From contig CP070672.1 of NCBI GenBank assembly GCA_020351895.1, positions 2,480,915-2,487,848 on the forward strand: 6,934 nt of DNA, read 5' to 3'. The notes under the pieces are model-generated. The model ran no database searches and was not told the origin of the DNA. It was given only the letters and a program-made list of their open reading frames with translations. Position 1 is the first letter of the stretch. Each line of letters begins with the position of its first letter. This DNA is from Thermoplasmata archaeon (GTDB lineage Archaea; Thermoplasmatota; Thermoplasmata; GCA-020350865). The position numbers and the translations under genes were made by a program. Positions 1,700-6,934 of the stretch are shown piece by piece.

Positions 1700-1810
1700 A
1701 TGGGATCAAATGCCACAGTCAGGCACTGCTTGCCCTACTGTGCTCTGATATTGATATTCGTACTCATGCAGGTGGCTGGAATGCTAATGAGCCCCTCTAT
1801 GGGAGAGGGC
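1700..1810 (+). other. Signal peptide region of the surface protein
   Basis: The protein begins MGSNATVRH, a short n-region with one arginine. Residues 10-30 (CLPYCALILIFVLMQVAGML) form an uninterrupted hydrophobic core, then SPSMGEGKN is polar. Cleavage is probably in the stretch around residues 30-36, but no single site is clear. No twin arginine is present and no clear lipobox was seen, so export by the Sec route is expected. Confidence 0.75.
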
Positions 1811-4800
1811 AAGAATCCGGTTTTAACTGTGACTGGGACAAACCAGGACGATAGGTTCGGATGGAATGTATCCAGTGCAGGCGATGTGAACGGAGACGGT
1901 TATGACGATATCATTGTGGGCGCACCGGGTTACAACCTGAGCAGAGGCAGGGCATATATCTTTTTTGGGGGACCTTGGTTTTCCGGGCTGCTTAAAGCCA
2001 AGAACGCTAATATCACGTTGACCGGGACAGCCCCCGGTGACAGGTTCGGCTGGGACGTCTCCGGTGCAGGGGATGTGAACAGGGACGGGTTTGATGATGT
2101 GATTGTGGGTGCACCAGGCAGAAACAAAGGTGTGGGTTCATCATATCTTTTTTACGGAAAAAAAACCTCTGTTACCGCCTTGAAGGCAATAAATGCCAAT
2201 TCAACATATTTGGGAGAGGATACAGGCCATGAATTCGGTTCATCGGTATCATGGGCTGGGGATGTGAACAATGATGGATACGATGATATAATTATTGGGG
2301 CTCCATATTATAATGGATGGTGGGACAGGAATTGGACGAACCGAATAAAATTGACCTTCGACAATTCCGAACAATCAGAAGATCTATACAACTTTCCGGT
2401 ATTGATAAACCTTAGTTCACCTATTTTTGATTATTCCAAGGCCAATTTAGACGGCACTGATCTGCGCTTCATTGACGACGACGGCAAAACTGAACTAAAT
2501 TACCATATCGAAGTATGGGATCCTGCCGGATATAGCCATGTTTGGGTGAATGTGACAAAAATAGATGCTAATTCAGAAACAGATCATGTTTGGATGTACT
2601 ACGGAAACACTGCGGCTTCTGATACTCAAGATCCTATGAAAACCTATGATTCGGATTATGTGGGAGTCTGGCATTTGAATGAAACAGTAATCGATGAGGC
2701 GATGTCAGGGGTGCATTACGATTCCACCTCTTATAACAACCATGGAAGTCAAAACAAAAACGATGATATTTTAGGAAAGATTGCTTATGGCCAGTTTTTT
2801 GATGGGACCGACGATAAGGTTCACATCACTGACGATCCCAGCTTGCAAATAGTTGATATGACACTTGAGGCTTGGGTGTACATTCTCGGAATAATACCTA
2901 TGAATTGGAGTACAATAATTGAGCACGACAGAAGCGATGTTAACTGGTACGGGTTATGGAAATCTGACAATGGCAATGTATTTCATTTCAGATGGAGTAC
3001 AGGTACTGTGAGAAGGACGGATTTTACATCACCGATAATTCCGAATTCGTGGTATTACGTGGCTGGAGTTCTGAATACCTCTTCATCCACAGCCTACGGA
3101 TACCTGAACGGCGATATCGATATCACTGTCCCCGGGGCCGATCCCCCGACTCCGTCTCCAGGATTCACAAGGTTTGGGAGCTCCGGCAACGGAACTGAGG
3201 ATTTCTCGGGGATAATCGATGAGGTGCGTATTTCAAAGAAAGCGAGAAGTGCGGATTGGATCAGGGCACAGTATTTTTCCATGAACGGCAGCTTTGTCGT
3301 ATTTGGTGAAGAGACCGTGTTATCCCAGGTGCCTGGTGCCGCATACATATTTCTCGGAAATAAAACCCTGGAATTAGAAATCAAAGCCGCGGAGGCGGAT
3401 ACGTTTCTGGGGGGTGAAAGAGGGAATTTTGGATTCTCTGTCTCCTCTGCTGGCAACGTCAACAACGATCAATATGACGATGTGATAATTGGGGCGCCTG
3501 GGGTGGACAAAGCCTATGTTTACTTCGGAGGCAACCCCATGAACGCTTGGGTCCAAACGAGCCAGGCCGACTTCGATTCCGCCGAAAAAAAGATCCACAT
3601 CAATACCACTCGGAATATGGACGGGGAGGTACAGCTTGCATCCTTCTACAACATCAAGGCCATGATGGCCTATTTCGACGGGTCCAATCCCCCGGACACT
3701 CCCGAGGTTCCAAAGAACAGGACATGGGATCAATCCTTCTGGAGGGAGGAAAATAAACCTGCTACTATAGGAATCGATGAAAATTACTGGTTCGCTCTCA
3801 GGTCGAGCACAACCCGAAAGAACGAGAAGATTTTGGTTATATCGGATGCGGGTAGAGATCTTAATATTCAGGTTTCGGACGGACTATCATGGAACCATGT
3901 CATGGAGCTGGACACCGTTTCAAAGGATATGAAGTTCAGGGGATTTGATGTGGCATACGAGTCGAAATCAGGCAATGCCGTTTTTGCTTACTTCAATGAT
4001 TCTAGTCCTTCAAAGCTCGTTCCCAAATACCGTATATGGGACGGAAATTCATGGAGTAGTGAAATGGATGCAGAGCCCGTTGGCACAGCTGATATCCAGT
4101 GGATTGTTTTGGCCTCGAATCCCCTGAAAGATGAGATAATGATGCTCACTCTCGACAAAGGTAACAGGGACATCTATGCCCAGGTATGGAACGGCACAGC
4201 ATGGGGAAATGTTCAACTGATTGAGAGCCAGGCATCAAGAGATGACAACCTGTGCTTCGATGCTGTATATGAGCAACAGTCAGGATATGGGATGATTGTG
4301 TGGGGAGGAGACAGCGGGAGCAACAAGAACCTCAACTACAGGCGGTGGACAGGAGATTGGTCCGAAATGGCGGGAACCATGACGGCTGCCGACAACCAGG
4401 TGAATGTAGTGAAGCTGGCAGCTGACCCCAGAACCGATTATATTATCTCCGGCAATCTCGATAATGGAAAACGGATTGATGTGCAGATATGGAACGGGAA
4501 AGGATGGAGTGCTGTGAGGGAGGTGGCACCTGGAAATGCAGAGAGAAGTGCAGAGCACTGCTTTGATGTTGCATACGAGGCAACAGGTGATCGTGGGGGA
4601 ATCGTGGTTTACGGCATCGATGACCATAGACCTGCTTATCGGTTAATAAACGGGACTTCTGTCGGTCCCGAAGGTTTTGTTCTAGAGGCAAACCCTCCAG
4701 ATAATGGCAGGAAACCGAACTGGATATTATTAGAAAGCGATCCCCAGACAAGAAATATCATGTTGACCTATATAATAGATGACGGGGGTGGAAACGGTGG

Positions 4801-6934
4801 TGCCGAGGACGATATTGGGTGTGAGGTATGGAACGGAACAGAATGGATATTACCCCAGCGAGTGGAGCTGAATTCAACAAGGGATAACGGTCAATGCTTT
4901 GATATGGCTTATACAGATACATCAGGTTATCTGATTTCGGCGCCGTATGATGCACTAACTGCAGGGACTTGGGGCCGAATAAGGTGGACTGCAAAAATAC
5001 CCAGGCAAACAGATATTCAGTTCAGAACTAGGACATCATCAGACGGTAATAATTGGAGCGCATGGTCAGATTGGTTGGATAACGGGGATAGAATTGGCAG
5101 TCCCGCAAACAGGTGGATCCAGTACGAGGCCTATTTCGAGACAACCAATGTTGGCCGAACTCCCATACTTTACGATGTATCAATAGAACTGAACAGGGCT
5201 AACCTGACATTAAAAGGTACACCCCAAGAGGGTTTCGGATGGTCCGTTTCCAACACCGGCGACCTCCAAGATGACGGATATGACGATATGATTGTGGGTG
5301 CTCCCTTTAATGGCAGTGCCAACGGTTCAGCGTATATCTTTTCAGGTGCCCGAGTGAAGACGGAGGGGGATGGCGATAGATTCATAAACCTCACAAATGG
5401 CGATACTGCAAATGTCACCCTGATAGGGGATGTAGGGGATGATAGGTTCGGGTACTCAGTGTCACGGGCAGGCAATGTATCCAGTGATAATTATCCCGAT
5501 GTGGTGGTTGGGGCTCCAGGTGCACAGAAATCGGGCACAATATACATCTTCTTTGGCTCGCCTTCAATGGATCCCGTTCTACCAGTTTCCGATGCAGATG
5601 CTTTGTTTACTGGAGATGGAGAACTGGAATGCTTTGGATGGTCTGTTACTTTGGTTGGAAATATCAGTTCGACCGGGTATGACGAGGTTGCTGTTGGGGC
5701 GCCTTTTTACGATGACATGAGCAAAACAGATGCAGGTAGGGTCTACATAATAAATTTCCATTATCGGCCCGACATCTCAATTAACGGCAACGTAAATGAT
5801 GAGTACCAGGTTATACCTGCCGGTTTACAGGTCAATGTATCATGGGTAACCCCCGGCAATAACATTACATTTTATATTAAAGTGGAAAATGATGGAACGC
5901 TTCCGGATACCTACGATTTAAATATTACAACGGGAATGCTTGCTGGTTGGTTTTGGAATATTACTGACAACATCACGGCAGAGGAAATCCTGGATGGTCA
6001 CAGCATCACCCTATTACCCGGGGAAAACAGGACCTTCACTCTGAACGTATCTGTACCGATTTCTACTTTTCATGGGGAGGAATCGTGGGTTACTGTAACT
6101 GCGGTATCACAGAATGATACTGTAAAGAAAGATGCGGTAAAAGCTGTTGTCCGCGCCTTGGATGTCACTCCTCCTGAAATCCTAGATACAACTTCCGGGA
6201 CACCCTCCACTGGAGATATCTTTGTGATATCAACCACAGTAACCGACGATGTGATTGTCAACAATGTTTATCTCTATTATTGCTTCGATTTGTTCGATGG
6301 AGGTATGGATGGGCCATACAATGTAACCATGGACCCTGGATACACTAAAGATATTACTGCACCTACCAATGCTACTGTCCTTTATTACAATATCTCAGTC
6401 AATGATACCAGTGACAACTGGAACGAGACTGGGGAAAAGATATTAAGCGTTCTAGATAACGATTTACCTGCTCTCGTTGATATCACTTCGGGTTCCCCAA
6501 CAACCGGAGACCAATTTGTCGTGACAGTTGCAGCTTCTGACAATATCCAGATTGTTGGAGTTCACGTACTTTTATGGTTCGAGACCACAGGTGGACCTAT
6601 TGCACCTGTGAACCTTAGCATGAATGATATTGGAGGAGGCAATTTCCAACGCGGTATAAATGTACCTGCAAACGCACTCGTACTCCATTATAAATTCAGT
6701 GCAAACGACACCTCGGACAACTGGAACGAAACCGGATTCGTCACCTTAAATGTGGTGGACAATGACGGGCCCAATATTATAGATACAACTTCGGATTCCC
6801 CAACGACAGGTGACTTATTTTCAATTACAGCATCTACCACAGACAACATAGAAGTGGGTGAGGTCCAGGTCTATTTCGGGTTCGATTTATATGGGGGAGG
6901 AACGGACGGACCCTACAACATATCAATGGATCCC
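1700..6934 (+). CDS. Giant secreted surface protein with nested beta-propellers (FG-GAP, DUF2341, LamG, Ig-like), N-terminal 1745 codons
   Basis: The frame is open from ATG 1700 to the window end without a stop; an in-frame TGA at 1691 bounds it upstream. Order seen: signal peptide (h-region about residues 10-30); seven FG-GAP blades (FG at about 53, 116, 179, 577, 1179, 1250, 1312); insertion 1 in blade 3 (DUF2341 207-315, LamG-like 322-530); insertion 2 between blades 4 and 5 (614-1164; repeat propeller and beta-sandwich); NEW3/CARDB-like domain (1356-1487); Ig-like repeats from 1488, the third cut by the edge. About forty N-x-S/T sequons, counted by eye, and few cysteines fit an archaeal glycosylated exoprotein. 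FG-GAP propellers and LamG folds bind proteins or sugars, so adhesion or substrate binding is inferred; no catalytic site was recognised. The C-terminal anchor is outside the window. The gene appears to stand alone, diverging from the transposase-like gene. Confidence 0.95.
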   Translation, partial: MGSNATVRHCLPYCALILIFVLMQVAGMLMSPSMGEGKNPVLTVTGTNQDDRFGWNVSSAGDVNGDGYDDIIVGAPGYNLSRGRAYIFFGGPWFSGLLKAKNANITLTGTAPGDRFGWDVSGAGDVNRDGFDDVIVGAPGRNKGVGSSYLFYGKKTSVTALKAINANSTYLGEDTGHEFGSSVSWAGDVNNDGYDDIIIGAPYYNGWWDRNWTNRIKLTFDNSEQSEDLYNFPVLINLSSPIFDYSKANLDGTDLRFIDDDGKTELNYHIEVWDPAGYSHVWVNVTKIDANSETDHVWMYYGNTAASDTQDPMKTYDSDYVGVWHLNETVIDEAMSGVHYDSTSYNNHGSQNKNDDILGKIAYGQFFDGTDDKVHITDDPSLQIVDMTLEAWVYILGIIPMNWSTIIEHDRSDVNWYGLWKSDNGNVFHFRWSTGTVRRTDFTSPIIPNSWYYVAGVLNTSSSTAYGYLNGDIDITVPGADPPTPSPGFTRFGSSGNGTEDFSGIIDEVRISKKARSADWIRAQYFSMNGSFVVFGEETVLSQVPGAAYIFLGNKTLELEIKAAEADTFLGGERGNFGFSVSSAGNVNNDQYDDVIIGAPGVDKAYVYFGGNPMNAWVQTSQADFDSAEKKIHINTTRNMDGEVQLASFYNIKAMMAYFDGSNPPDTPEVPKNRTWDQSFWREENKPATIGIDENYWFALRSSTTRKNEKILVISDAGRDLNIQVSDGLSWNHVMELDTVSKDMKFRGFDVAYESKSGNAVFAYFNDSSPSKLVPKYRIWDGNSWSSEMDAEPVGTADIQWIVLASNPLKDEIMMLTLDKGNRDIYAQVWNGTAWGNVQLIESQASRDDNLCFDAVYEQQSGYGMIVWGGDSGSNKNLNYRRWTGDWSEMAGTMTAADNQVNVVKLAADPRTDYIISGNLDNGKRIDVQIWNGKGWSAVREVAPGNAERSAEHCFDVAYEATGDRGGIVVYGIDDHRPAYRLINGTSVGPEGFVLEANPPDNGRKPNWILLESDPQTRNIMLTYIIDDGGGNGGAEDDIGCEVWNGTEWILPQRVELNSTRDNGQCFDMAYTDTSGYLISAPYDALTAGTWGRIRWTAKIPRQTDIQFRTRTSSDGNNWSAWSDWLDNGDRIGSPANRWIQYEAYFETTNVGRTPILYDVSIELNRANLTLKGTPQEGFGWSVSNTGDLQDDGYDDMIVGAPFNGSANGSAYIFSGARVKTEGDGDRFINLTNGDTANVTLIGDVGDDRFGYSVSRAGNVSSDNYPDVVVGAPGAQKSGTIYIFFGSPSMDPVLPVSDADALFTGDGELECFGWSVTLVGNISSTGYDEVAVGAPFYDDMSKTDAGRVYIINFHYRPDISINGNVNDEYQVIPAGLQVNVSWVTPGNNITFYIKVENDGTLPDTYDLNITTGMLAGWFWNITDNITAEEILDGHSITLLPGENRTFTLNVSVPISTFHGEESWVTVTAVSQNDTVKKDAVKAVVRALDVTPPEILDTTSGTPSTGDIFVISTTVTDDVIVNNVYLYYCFDLFDGGMDGPYNVTMDPGYTKDITAPTNATVLYYNISVNDTSDNWNETGEKILSVLDNDLPALVDITSGSPTTGDQFVVTVAASDNIQIVGVHVLLWFETTGGPIAPVNLSMNDIGGGNFQRGINVPANALVLHYKFSANDTSDNWNETGFVTLNVVDNDGPNIIDTTSDSPTTGDLFSITASTTDNIEVGEVQVYFGFDLYGGGTDGPYNISMDP
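2318..3328 (+). other. Insertion 1: DUF2341 plus LamG-like module inside blade 3
   Basis: Residues 207-315 match DUF2341: WWDRNWTNRIKLTF, then DGTDLRFID near the middle, and WMYYGNTAASD around 299-308. From W324 (GVWHLNE) a LamG-like concanavalin-type sandwich follows, with FFDGTDDKV at 366-374, LEAWVY, WYYVAGVLN, and the closing IIDEVRISKKARSADWI at about 505-521. The DUF2341-LamG pairing is common in prokaryotic exoproteins; it is expected to bind ligand, often sugar, at the surface. Blade 3 stops after GAPYYNG before this module and resumes as PGAAYIFLG after it. Confidence 0.85.
3647..4948 (+). repeat. Insertion 2, part 1: duplicated WNG/CFDVAY repeats, possible eight-bladed propeller
   Basis: Two alternating ~50-residue half-units repeat. 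Type A carries IxLxSxPxxxxI...xVWNGTxW (A1 from 697, A2 799, A3 901, A4 1005; WNG tryptophans at 830, 931, 1044, with the divergent VSDGLSW in A1). Type B begins FDVAYExxSG (F at 749, 853, 955, 1067) and ends in a YRxWxGxxW strand. The first segment (653-688, AMMAYFDGSNP...RTWDQSFW) is a type B unit lacking its start, and the last (1067-1083) is a type B start lacking its end. Together they would make one blade, giving eight. I do not recognise a named family; the fold is inferred. Confidence 0.7.
4961..5191 (+). other. Insertion 2, part 2: beta-sandwich-like domain
   Basis: Residues 1088-1164 read as a compact beta-rich domain: IRWTAKIPRQTDIQFRTRTS, SDGNNWSAWSDW, then IGSPANRWIQYEAYFET and TPILYDVSIEL. 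This pattern (WTA..P..T.I.F.TRTS.DG..WS.W, RxIQY, TPxLYDV) is one I know from other exported propeller-type proteins, but I cannot name the family with certainty. It ends exactly where the FG-GAP propeller resumes (NRANLTLKG at 1165). Confidence 0.6.
5765..6160 (+). other. NEW3/CARDB-like beta-sandwich domain
   Basis: Residues 1356-1487, directly after the last propeller blade, show the typical pattern of NEW3/CARDB-like domains: NITFYIKVENDGTLPDTYDL, a tryptophan-containing strand (GWFWNIT), then ITLLPGENRTFTLNVSVP and a closing strand with VTVTAVSQND. Such domains act as extracellular spacers in archaeal surface proteins. Several N-x-S/T sequons occur here. Confidence 0.65.
6161..6934 (+). 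repeat. Tandem Ig-like repeats, ~100 residues each, third cut by window edge
   Basis: Units begin at residues 1488, 1586 and 1687 (bases 6161, 6455, 6758), giving periods of 98 and 101 residues. Each starts D-x-x-x-P-x-(I/L)-x-(D)-(T/I)-TS-x-(T/S)-P-(S/T)-TGD-x-F, followed by TDD or SDN/TDN; complete units end with NDTSDNWNETG, nearly identical between units 1 and 2. These are extracellular Ig-like beta-sandwich repeats that probably hold the binding domains away from the cell. More copies may continue past the edge. Confidence 0.85.

Follow-up and report, generated by a model that had tools for sequence, protein, structure and literature searches.

Can one beta-propeller be housed within another? 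The question is raised by a 6,934-nt stretch of DNA from a Thermoplasmata archaeon (contig CP070672.1, positions 2,480,915 to 2,487,848; hereafter the window, meaning the whole stretch), in which a plus-strand open frame (nt 1700-6934) encodes the start of a giant FG-GAP protein, a presumed archaeal surface protein. The frame reaches no stop codon before the window ends (1745 aa), and Pfam recognizes seven FG-GAP stretches in it (159.3 bits; cut-off 22.1) together with DUF2341 and Laminin_G_3. The original prediction held that a second, eight-bladed propeller, closed by a split blade and of a family that could not be named, lies inside the FG-GAP propeller. Our analysis points to a ring in a sandwich in a ring, with the inner ring probably serving as an exchangeable ligand-binding head of an archaeal surface adhesin. 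Computed support comes from the repeat pattern, the split blade, the predicted fold, the integrin-type outer ring of a homologue (L001) and host halves that reappear elsewhere with different guests between them.

Repeat units and predicted closure of the inner ring

Cutting the inner region at its strand-1 motifs gave nine segments, and pairs of these were scored as shuffle z-scores. The first, Bend, comprises strands 2-4 of a split B blade (beginning AMMAYF; nt 3659-3787, aa 654-696). It is followed by blades A1 (nt 3788-3940, aa 697-747), B1 (nt 3941-4099, aa 748-800), A2 (nt 4100-4252, aa 801-851), B2 (nt 4253-4399, aa 852-900), A3 (nt 4400-4558, aa 901-953), B3 (nt 4559-4720, aa 954-1007) and A4 (nt 4721-4894, aa 1008-1065). 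The last segment, Bstart, has 11 residues (nt 4895-4927, aa 1066-1076) and contains strand 1 of the split blade, the closing strand CFDMAY (nt 4895-4912, aa 1066-1071). Full segments are 49-58 aa each. Similarity follows blade type, with z of 4.0 to 12.8 for the six A-A pairs, 5.6 to 9.6 for the three B-B pairs and -0.4 to 5.2 for the twelve A-B pairs. Taken by itself, Bend resembles B1 clearly (z 9.3) and B3 weakly (z 2.3), and Bstart resembles B1, B2 and B3 (z 6.1, 6.9 and 6.6). Joined, the two pieces score 15.9, 4.5 and 5.0 against the same three B blades but do not exceed 0.1 with any of the four A blades. These scores confirm the proposed order of half-units, B(end)-A-B-A-B-A-B-A-B(start), and the complementarity of the incomplete first and last segments. 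One detail needs correction: the two residues with which the last segment had been ended, YL (aa 1077-1078), are more likely part of the following sandwich strand, so that the inner ring ends near aa 1071-1076.

Relatives were gathered in two protein searches, one yielding 58 proteins (the window's own included) and the other 77, or 135 together. Hidden Markov models (HMMs) of the A and B blades, trained on segments from 35 alignment rows, match 128 of the 135 proteins and yield 155 chains of segments. BABABABA is the commonest chain by far (66 chains, with one further chain being its double), and shorter ones include BABABAB (14), BA (14), BABABA (13) and ABABABA (10). Many of the short chains are due to cut proteins or divergence, and some perhaps reflect other ring sizes. 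Because a complete domain was defined as BABABABA, eight blades hold there by definition, and ring size was judged from all 155 chains. There are 68 such domains in 64 proteins, 33 within training proteins and 35 outside. Their first B blade does not begin before model position 9 in 32 of 33 training and 35 of 35 non-training domains, and their inner B blades begin at positions 1-4 in 99 of 99 and 97 of 105 cases, respectively. We then looked past the last A blade for a counterpart of B strand 1 that would beat 95% of shuffles of its own stretch. Such a strand was present in 13 of the 19 nested domains and in 33 of the 48 others (46 of 67, one domain being too short and dropped); the same test on the N side, as a control, was passed in 0 of 18 and 3 of 42 (3 of 60). 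With pooled shuffles, a version that dropped 13 of the 68 domains for having fewer than 15 residues behind the last A blade, the counts were 33 of 55 and 1 of 51. Several relatives consist of a leader and the inner-ring domain with little else, and share the same start and end (alignment A1).

Together with the segments and a superposition on the cytochrome cd1 propeller over aa 650-1074, a structure model of aa 608-1171 predicts eight four-stranded blades in a closed ring. The d1 propeller of cytochrome cd1 nitrite reductase is eight-bladed; propeller lectins of the PLL/PHL/BP39L and AAL types have seven or six blades of a single type, with sugar sites between blades. The better cd1 rows in VIA align 347-352 residues at 3.2-3.3 Å, across both ends of the ring. 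Seven-bladed PLL-type lectins reach equally high Z (21.8-24.0) and six or seven segments were detected in 37 of the 155 chains, both of which would suit a region that does not close as eight blades and is instead seven-bladed, open or made of separate sandwiches. The lectin rows, however, extend over only 308-320 residues at 3.8-4.2 Å (334 residues at 4.2 Å for BP39L), eight is the commonest chain length and the window itself has eight. On segments, chain distribution and superposition we disfavor separate sandwiches or a seven-bladed ring, and any failure to close as eight blades appears extremely improbable. The evidence supports the prediction of a closed eight-bladed beta-propeller, ABABABAB, whose closing blade would combine strands 2-4 from the N end with strand 1 from the C end, the strands FDMAY and AMMAYF presumably pairing. 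The eight blades of two alternating types expected earlier agree with segments, family chains, model and superposition taken together, and the split ("velcro") closure with the sequence scores, the family closing-strand counts and the range of the superposition.

The proposed split host segment and the outer ring

The inner ring is not inserted directly into the outer one. Instead it is flanked by the halves of a sandwich-like segment, an N half (WVQTSQADFDSAEKKIHINTTRNMDGEVQL; nt 3548-3637, aa 617-646), which recurs upstream of the C half elsewhere, and a C half (nt 4919-5206, aa 1074-1169; DSSP strands in the models). FG-GAP blade 4 in turn holds this host segment in its strand 3-4 hairpin. 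The idea of a propeller in a propeller is therefore supported, with the amendment that a split sandwich-like segment stands between the two rings.

The outer ring is interrupted twice. FG-GAP repeats 1 and 2, with the first half of repeat 3, occupy nt 1856-2317 (starts at aa 53, 116 and 179; Pfam and our own HMM). A second guest, DUF2341 plus LamG_3 (nt 2318-3328, aa about 207-543), then falls between strands 2 and 3 of blade 3. Blade 3 is completed within nt 3335-3532 (aa 546-611), a stretch that also holds blade 4 strands 1-3 and runs to AYVYFGG, and strand 4 of blade 4 (ANLTLKG) with repeats 5-7 resumes at nt 5198-5773 (starts at aa 1179, 1250 and 1312), the strands in both stretches being taken from L001. 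This homologue is a 2443-aa protein from chromosome CP070751.1, a Thermoplasmata archaeon metagenome-assembled genome (MAG). Seven FG-GAP repeats are present in both the window and L001 (seven Pfam stretches; own HMM), and in L001 they are predicted to form a closed seven-bladed ring like that of integrin alpha heads. DxDxDG-like loops between strands 1 and 2 read DVNGDG, DVNRDG, DVNNDG and DLQDDG in the frame and are degenerate in repeats 4, 6 and 7; judged by this motif, the outer-ring loops may bind Ca2+.

The host halves were searched for with HMMs of both, in a protein set that overlaps the N-model training set and in a set of loci that does not. Outside the nested group, 24 of 34 distinct C halves in proteins are preceded by an N half, at spacings of 185-200, 314-319 or 373-376 aa; among C halves from Thermoplasmata-class loci this holds for 21 of 37, with 153-875 aa between. 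No N half was found in control upstream stretches (0 of 88 reversed, 0 of 440 shuffled). A regular-expression listing, made without controls, finds the pair in 23 of 35 locus frames, some of them from the same gene. Pfam scans covered 19 loci with the half pair (L068 and one duplicate were left out), and the guest slot holds CBM96 or the disaggregatase repeat domain in 8 and MAM in 1. Of 11 proteins with the pair, 8 were scanned, and in each the gap matches 3keto-disac_hyd or the galactocerebrosidase lectin domain, passing the cut-off in 5 and falling below it in 3; we take both domains to be LamG-like in fold. The two host halves would form one split sandwich that hosts binding modules.

Several observations weigh against the nested reading and the function proposed with it. 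At the level of the inner ring, Bend by itself does not resemble B2 (z -1.1), and the closing strand pair is a prediction from sequence scores and superposition range. Chains other than plain eight or sixteen segments make up 88 of the 155, all shorter save one AABABABA and one BABABABAA, the latter the sole longer chain. The closing-strand signal is absent in 21 of 67 domains, and kinship among the family sequences means that these counts lack independence. The nested model has a pTM of only 0.62, which leaves the relative placement of its parts uncertain. At the level of the host, 26 copies of the C half (10 of the 34 in proteins, 16 of the 37 in loci) come with no recognized N half, although at least 8 of them have fewer than 250 aa upstream; a contiguous, guest-free N-C pair was found by neither regular expression nor HMM, and 10 of the 19 loci give no Pfam match in the guest slot. 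P0043 has five FG-GAP repeats ahead of the host N half (HMM), and membrane anchoring is seen in homologues only. Lastly, phmmer and profile search against PDB sequences gave no sequence match between the inner ring and lectins of known structure.

The unpaired C halves, the missing guest-free pair and the N half's pLDDT of about 68-78 would also fit host pieces that are not one domain, with a linker, the inner propeller and a separate sandwich lying in a row within the outer ring. Conservation of the N half around guests that differ, over spacings of 153-875 aa and with 0 of 528 control stretches, argues against such a row, and we consider it unlikely.

P0043 also carries a different guest domain among its FG-GAP repeats (690-1263). 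This guest and the repeat count suggest that socket or ring may differ between relatives.

Putative binding function and known propellers

The nested arrangement suggests how the protein might work. With its two ends side by side, the inner ring would act as a cartridge plugged into the split sandwich-like host segment, which in turn would sit in the blade 4 hairpin of the seven-bladed integrin-type propeller. Since the ring's ends meet in one blade, we infer that it could be inserted into a loop without strain, and the sandwich likewise into the outer ring. The integrin-type ring would form the Ca2+-stabilized head of a long archaeal surface protein anchored in the membrane; the window's protein is presumably so located and anchored. 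The inner ring would be the exchangeable part that binds ligand, most probably a glycan or another surface polymer. Its slot is shared with CBM96 and LamG-like guests, so a binding head, perhaps for glycans, is the most likely role.

Within the same nested structure the inner ring could have a different role, contacting other proteins or the S-layer lattice, or serving as a rigid spacer. Propellers are common scaffolds for protein interaction, and WD40 proteins in the VIA list equal the lectins in Z. A further point for it comes from P0061, whose N-terminus matches the archaellum stator ArlF below threshold (52.7 bits, cut-off 110), a place where envelope binding would fit. The guests that Pfam does name, however, are of carbohydrate-binding (CBM96, lectin-like) or MAM type, the other 10 of 19 loci being unnamed, and we regard a contact or spacer role as possible but doubtful. 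An enzymatic ring, sialidase-like or another glycoside hydrolase, is very unlikely. The five best Foldseek E-values do belong to bacterial sialidases (1wcq, E 1.4e-11), and an endo-arabinanase appears in the Foldseek list and BT3686 in that of VIA; both lists leave unlisted families possible. The sialidase matches, however, have an rmsd of 27-29 Å and a TM of 0.30 by query length, for which we rejected homology, and the SxDxGxTW motif of Asp-box propellers (PMC9218822) is not found (neither S.D.G.TW nor S.D.G.[TS]W occurs in aa 650-1085).

Precedents exist for FG-GAP rings, for inserted domains and for eight-bladed propellers. The closest parallel in layout is the integrin alpha head, an integrin-type ring that carries an inserted guest. 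The alphaI (vWA) domain lies between blades 2 and 3 (PMC3192720), and in integrins that have it alphaI binds the ligand (PMC3192720, PMC12422189). The guest in the window differs in being a split sandwich-like segment plus a propeller, placed in the strand 3-4 hairpin of blade 4. Bacterial and archaeal FG-GAP propellers have seven FG-GAP repeats and DxDxDG-like loops, as here (PMC3192720, PMC9218822). The accessible parts of these two papers describe no nested propeller, and the words "nested" and "insert" are absent from the main text of PMC9218822. The LVIVD, RIVW and LGxL repeats of archaeal surface proteins are 42-45 aa long (PMC2447325), against 49-58 aa for the inner units, which have no Pfam hit above cut-off.

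The inner ring is comparable to the cd1 d1 propeller at 6-8% identity only, lacking both the haem context and a sequence match, and to the PLL/PHL/BP39L and AAL lectins in fold only. Interleaved propellers occur in DDB1-type proteins, so nesting alone is not without precedent. The inner family itself, or a propeller nested in this manner, was not found in the Pfam and NCBIfam libraries searched, in PDB sequences or among the openly licensed papers listed by our literature searches.

We also raise, tentatively, the possibility of a class of archaeal integrin-alpha-like membrane receptors with a seven-bladed head, a modular split-sandwich socket for lectin-like cartridges, an Ig/cadherin-like stalk, one membrane helix and a conserved cytoplasmic domain. 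If this were true, ligand binding outside could be signalled inside. The nested arrangement would show a cartridge-like construction of surface heads, ring in sandwich in ring, and its likeness to the inserted domain of integrin alpha suggests that plug-ins of FG-GAP rings arose more than once. The slot shared with carbohydrate-binding modules offers a directly testable hint at function.

Distribution of the inner-ring family and further features of the window

The analysis defines an eight-bladed propeller family across archaea and bacteria that is unannotated in the libraries searched: the inner-ring region has nothing above cut-off in Pfam, and NCBIfam is silent too. The family that could not be named is thus indeed unmatched in Pfam, NCBIfam and PDB sequences, and turns out to be widespread. 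PF26696, a newer Pfam family found as a precomputed label on P0023, P0067, P0070 and P0076, may already cover part of it. Weak matches were taken as chance, namely DUF2510 (14.1 bits, cut-off 24), PDB sequences (E 0.2 to 1.1; phmmer and profile search) and PHROGs (E 0.04-0.05). Compared with BFVD, the model of aa 608-1171 gives 178 viral structure matches with E up to 0.001 (best A7KUQ7, E 5.7e-15, 15% identity, rmsd 14.4 Å), which hints at possible domains of this kind in viruses.

A search of genome contigs found the inner family at 26 loci, including Thermoplasmata, DPANN, Woesearchaeota, Methanosarcinaceae, Bathyarchaeota, Planctomyces, Patescibacteria, Elusimicrobia and Myxococcota. At least 35 of 200 genomes from the class of L001 match, at least 13 of them in the propeller part (rows read by eye), and propeller and sandwich are matched together in at least 2 of the 200, G001 (L001's own) and G018. 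Thermoplasmata-class genomes (L037-L048, L058-L077) hold many large surface frames with the split host segment around varied guests; seven such frames fall within 80-117 kb of G001 C1.

Regular expressions identify prepilin-like leaders in 9 of the 77 proteins and archaeal pilin-like leaders in 6. The former, in which the leader is followed by an inner-family propeller (P0079, P0080, P0097, P0118, P0122, P0123, P0127, P0133 and P0135; P0097 is named Saccharimonadales and P0122 Daviesbacteria), are candidate pilus-borne adhesins. PilX2, a propeller-bearing minor pilin of Saccharibacteria whose deletion reduced host binding, offers an analogue for such pilin-borne relatives; its propeller is described as seven-bladed with RCC1 repeats (PMC12206443). 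Five more proteins (P0061-P0064 and P0066) share one leader type by eye, an ArlF-like N-terminus fused to an inner-family propeller; P0061 was the only one of the five compared with ArlF. With such pilin-like and stator-like leaders, much of the inner family looks extracellular.

The window's closest relative is P0002, from a Thermoplasmata archaeon MAG (76% identity over the inner-ring region). The nested relatives P0002-P0018 are 1610-2732 aa long, and 14 of the 18 proteins P0001-P0018 have a hydrophobic segment close to the C end (the window cuts P0001 short, and P0002 is marked partial). L001 (locus 7179-14510) has Ig/cadherin-like repeats (Pfam) and a hydrophobic segment at 2216-2234, followed up to about aa 2400 by some 150 aa with no Pfam name and an acidic tail. 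Similar C-termini occur in several relatives, and we presume the 150-aa stretch to be roadblock/longin-like. The DUF2341 plus LamG_3 guest is neither among the Pfam labels of P0002-P0018 nor found in L001, and was perhaps gained in the window's lineage.

At its N-terminus the window's protein has a likely signal peptide (nt 1700-1807, aa 1-36; hydrophobic at 10-28 by hydropathy scan). Upstream of the gene, a 237-aa minus-strand frame (nt 2-712) has a zinc-ribbon-like N-terminal segment (matches below cut-off to Zn_ribbon_TFIIS at 18.9 bits and InsA-like at 14.1) and is perhaps a transposase or regulator. Just upstream of that frame, at nt 745-889, a 20-nt unit like TATCTCACGnATTTGGC occurs in five imperfect copies at a spacing of 25-34 nt, a possible operator or element end. 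The gap before the FG-GAP gene (nt 1210-1410) contains two or three TCCGGTTTTCGAGTGTTACC-like units with inverted partners.
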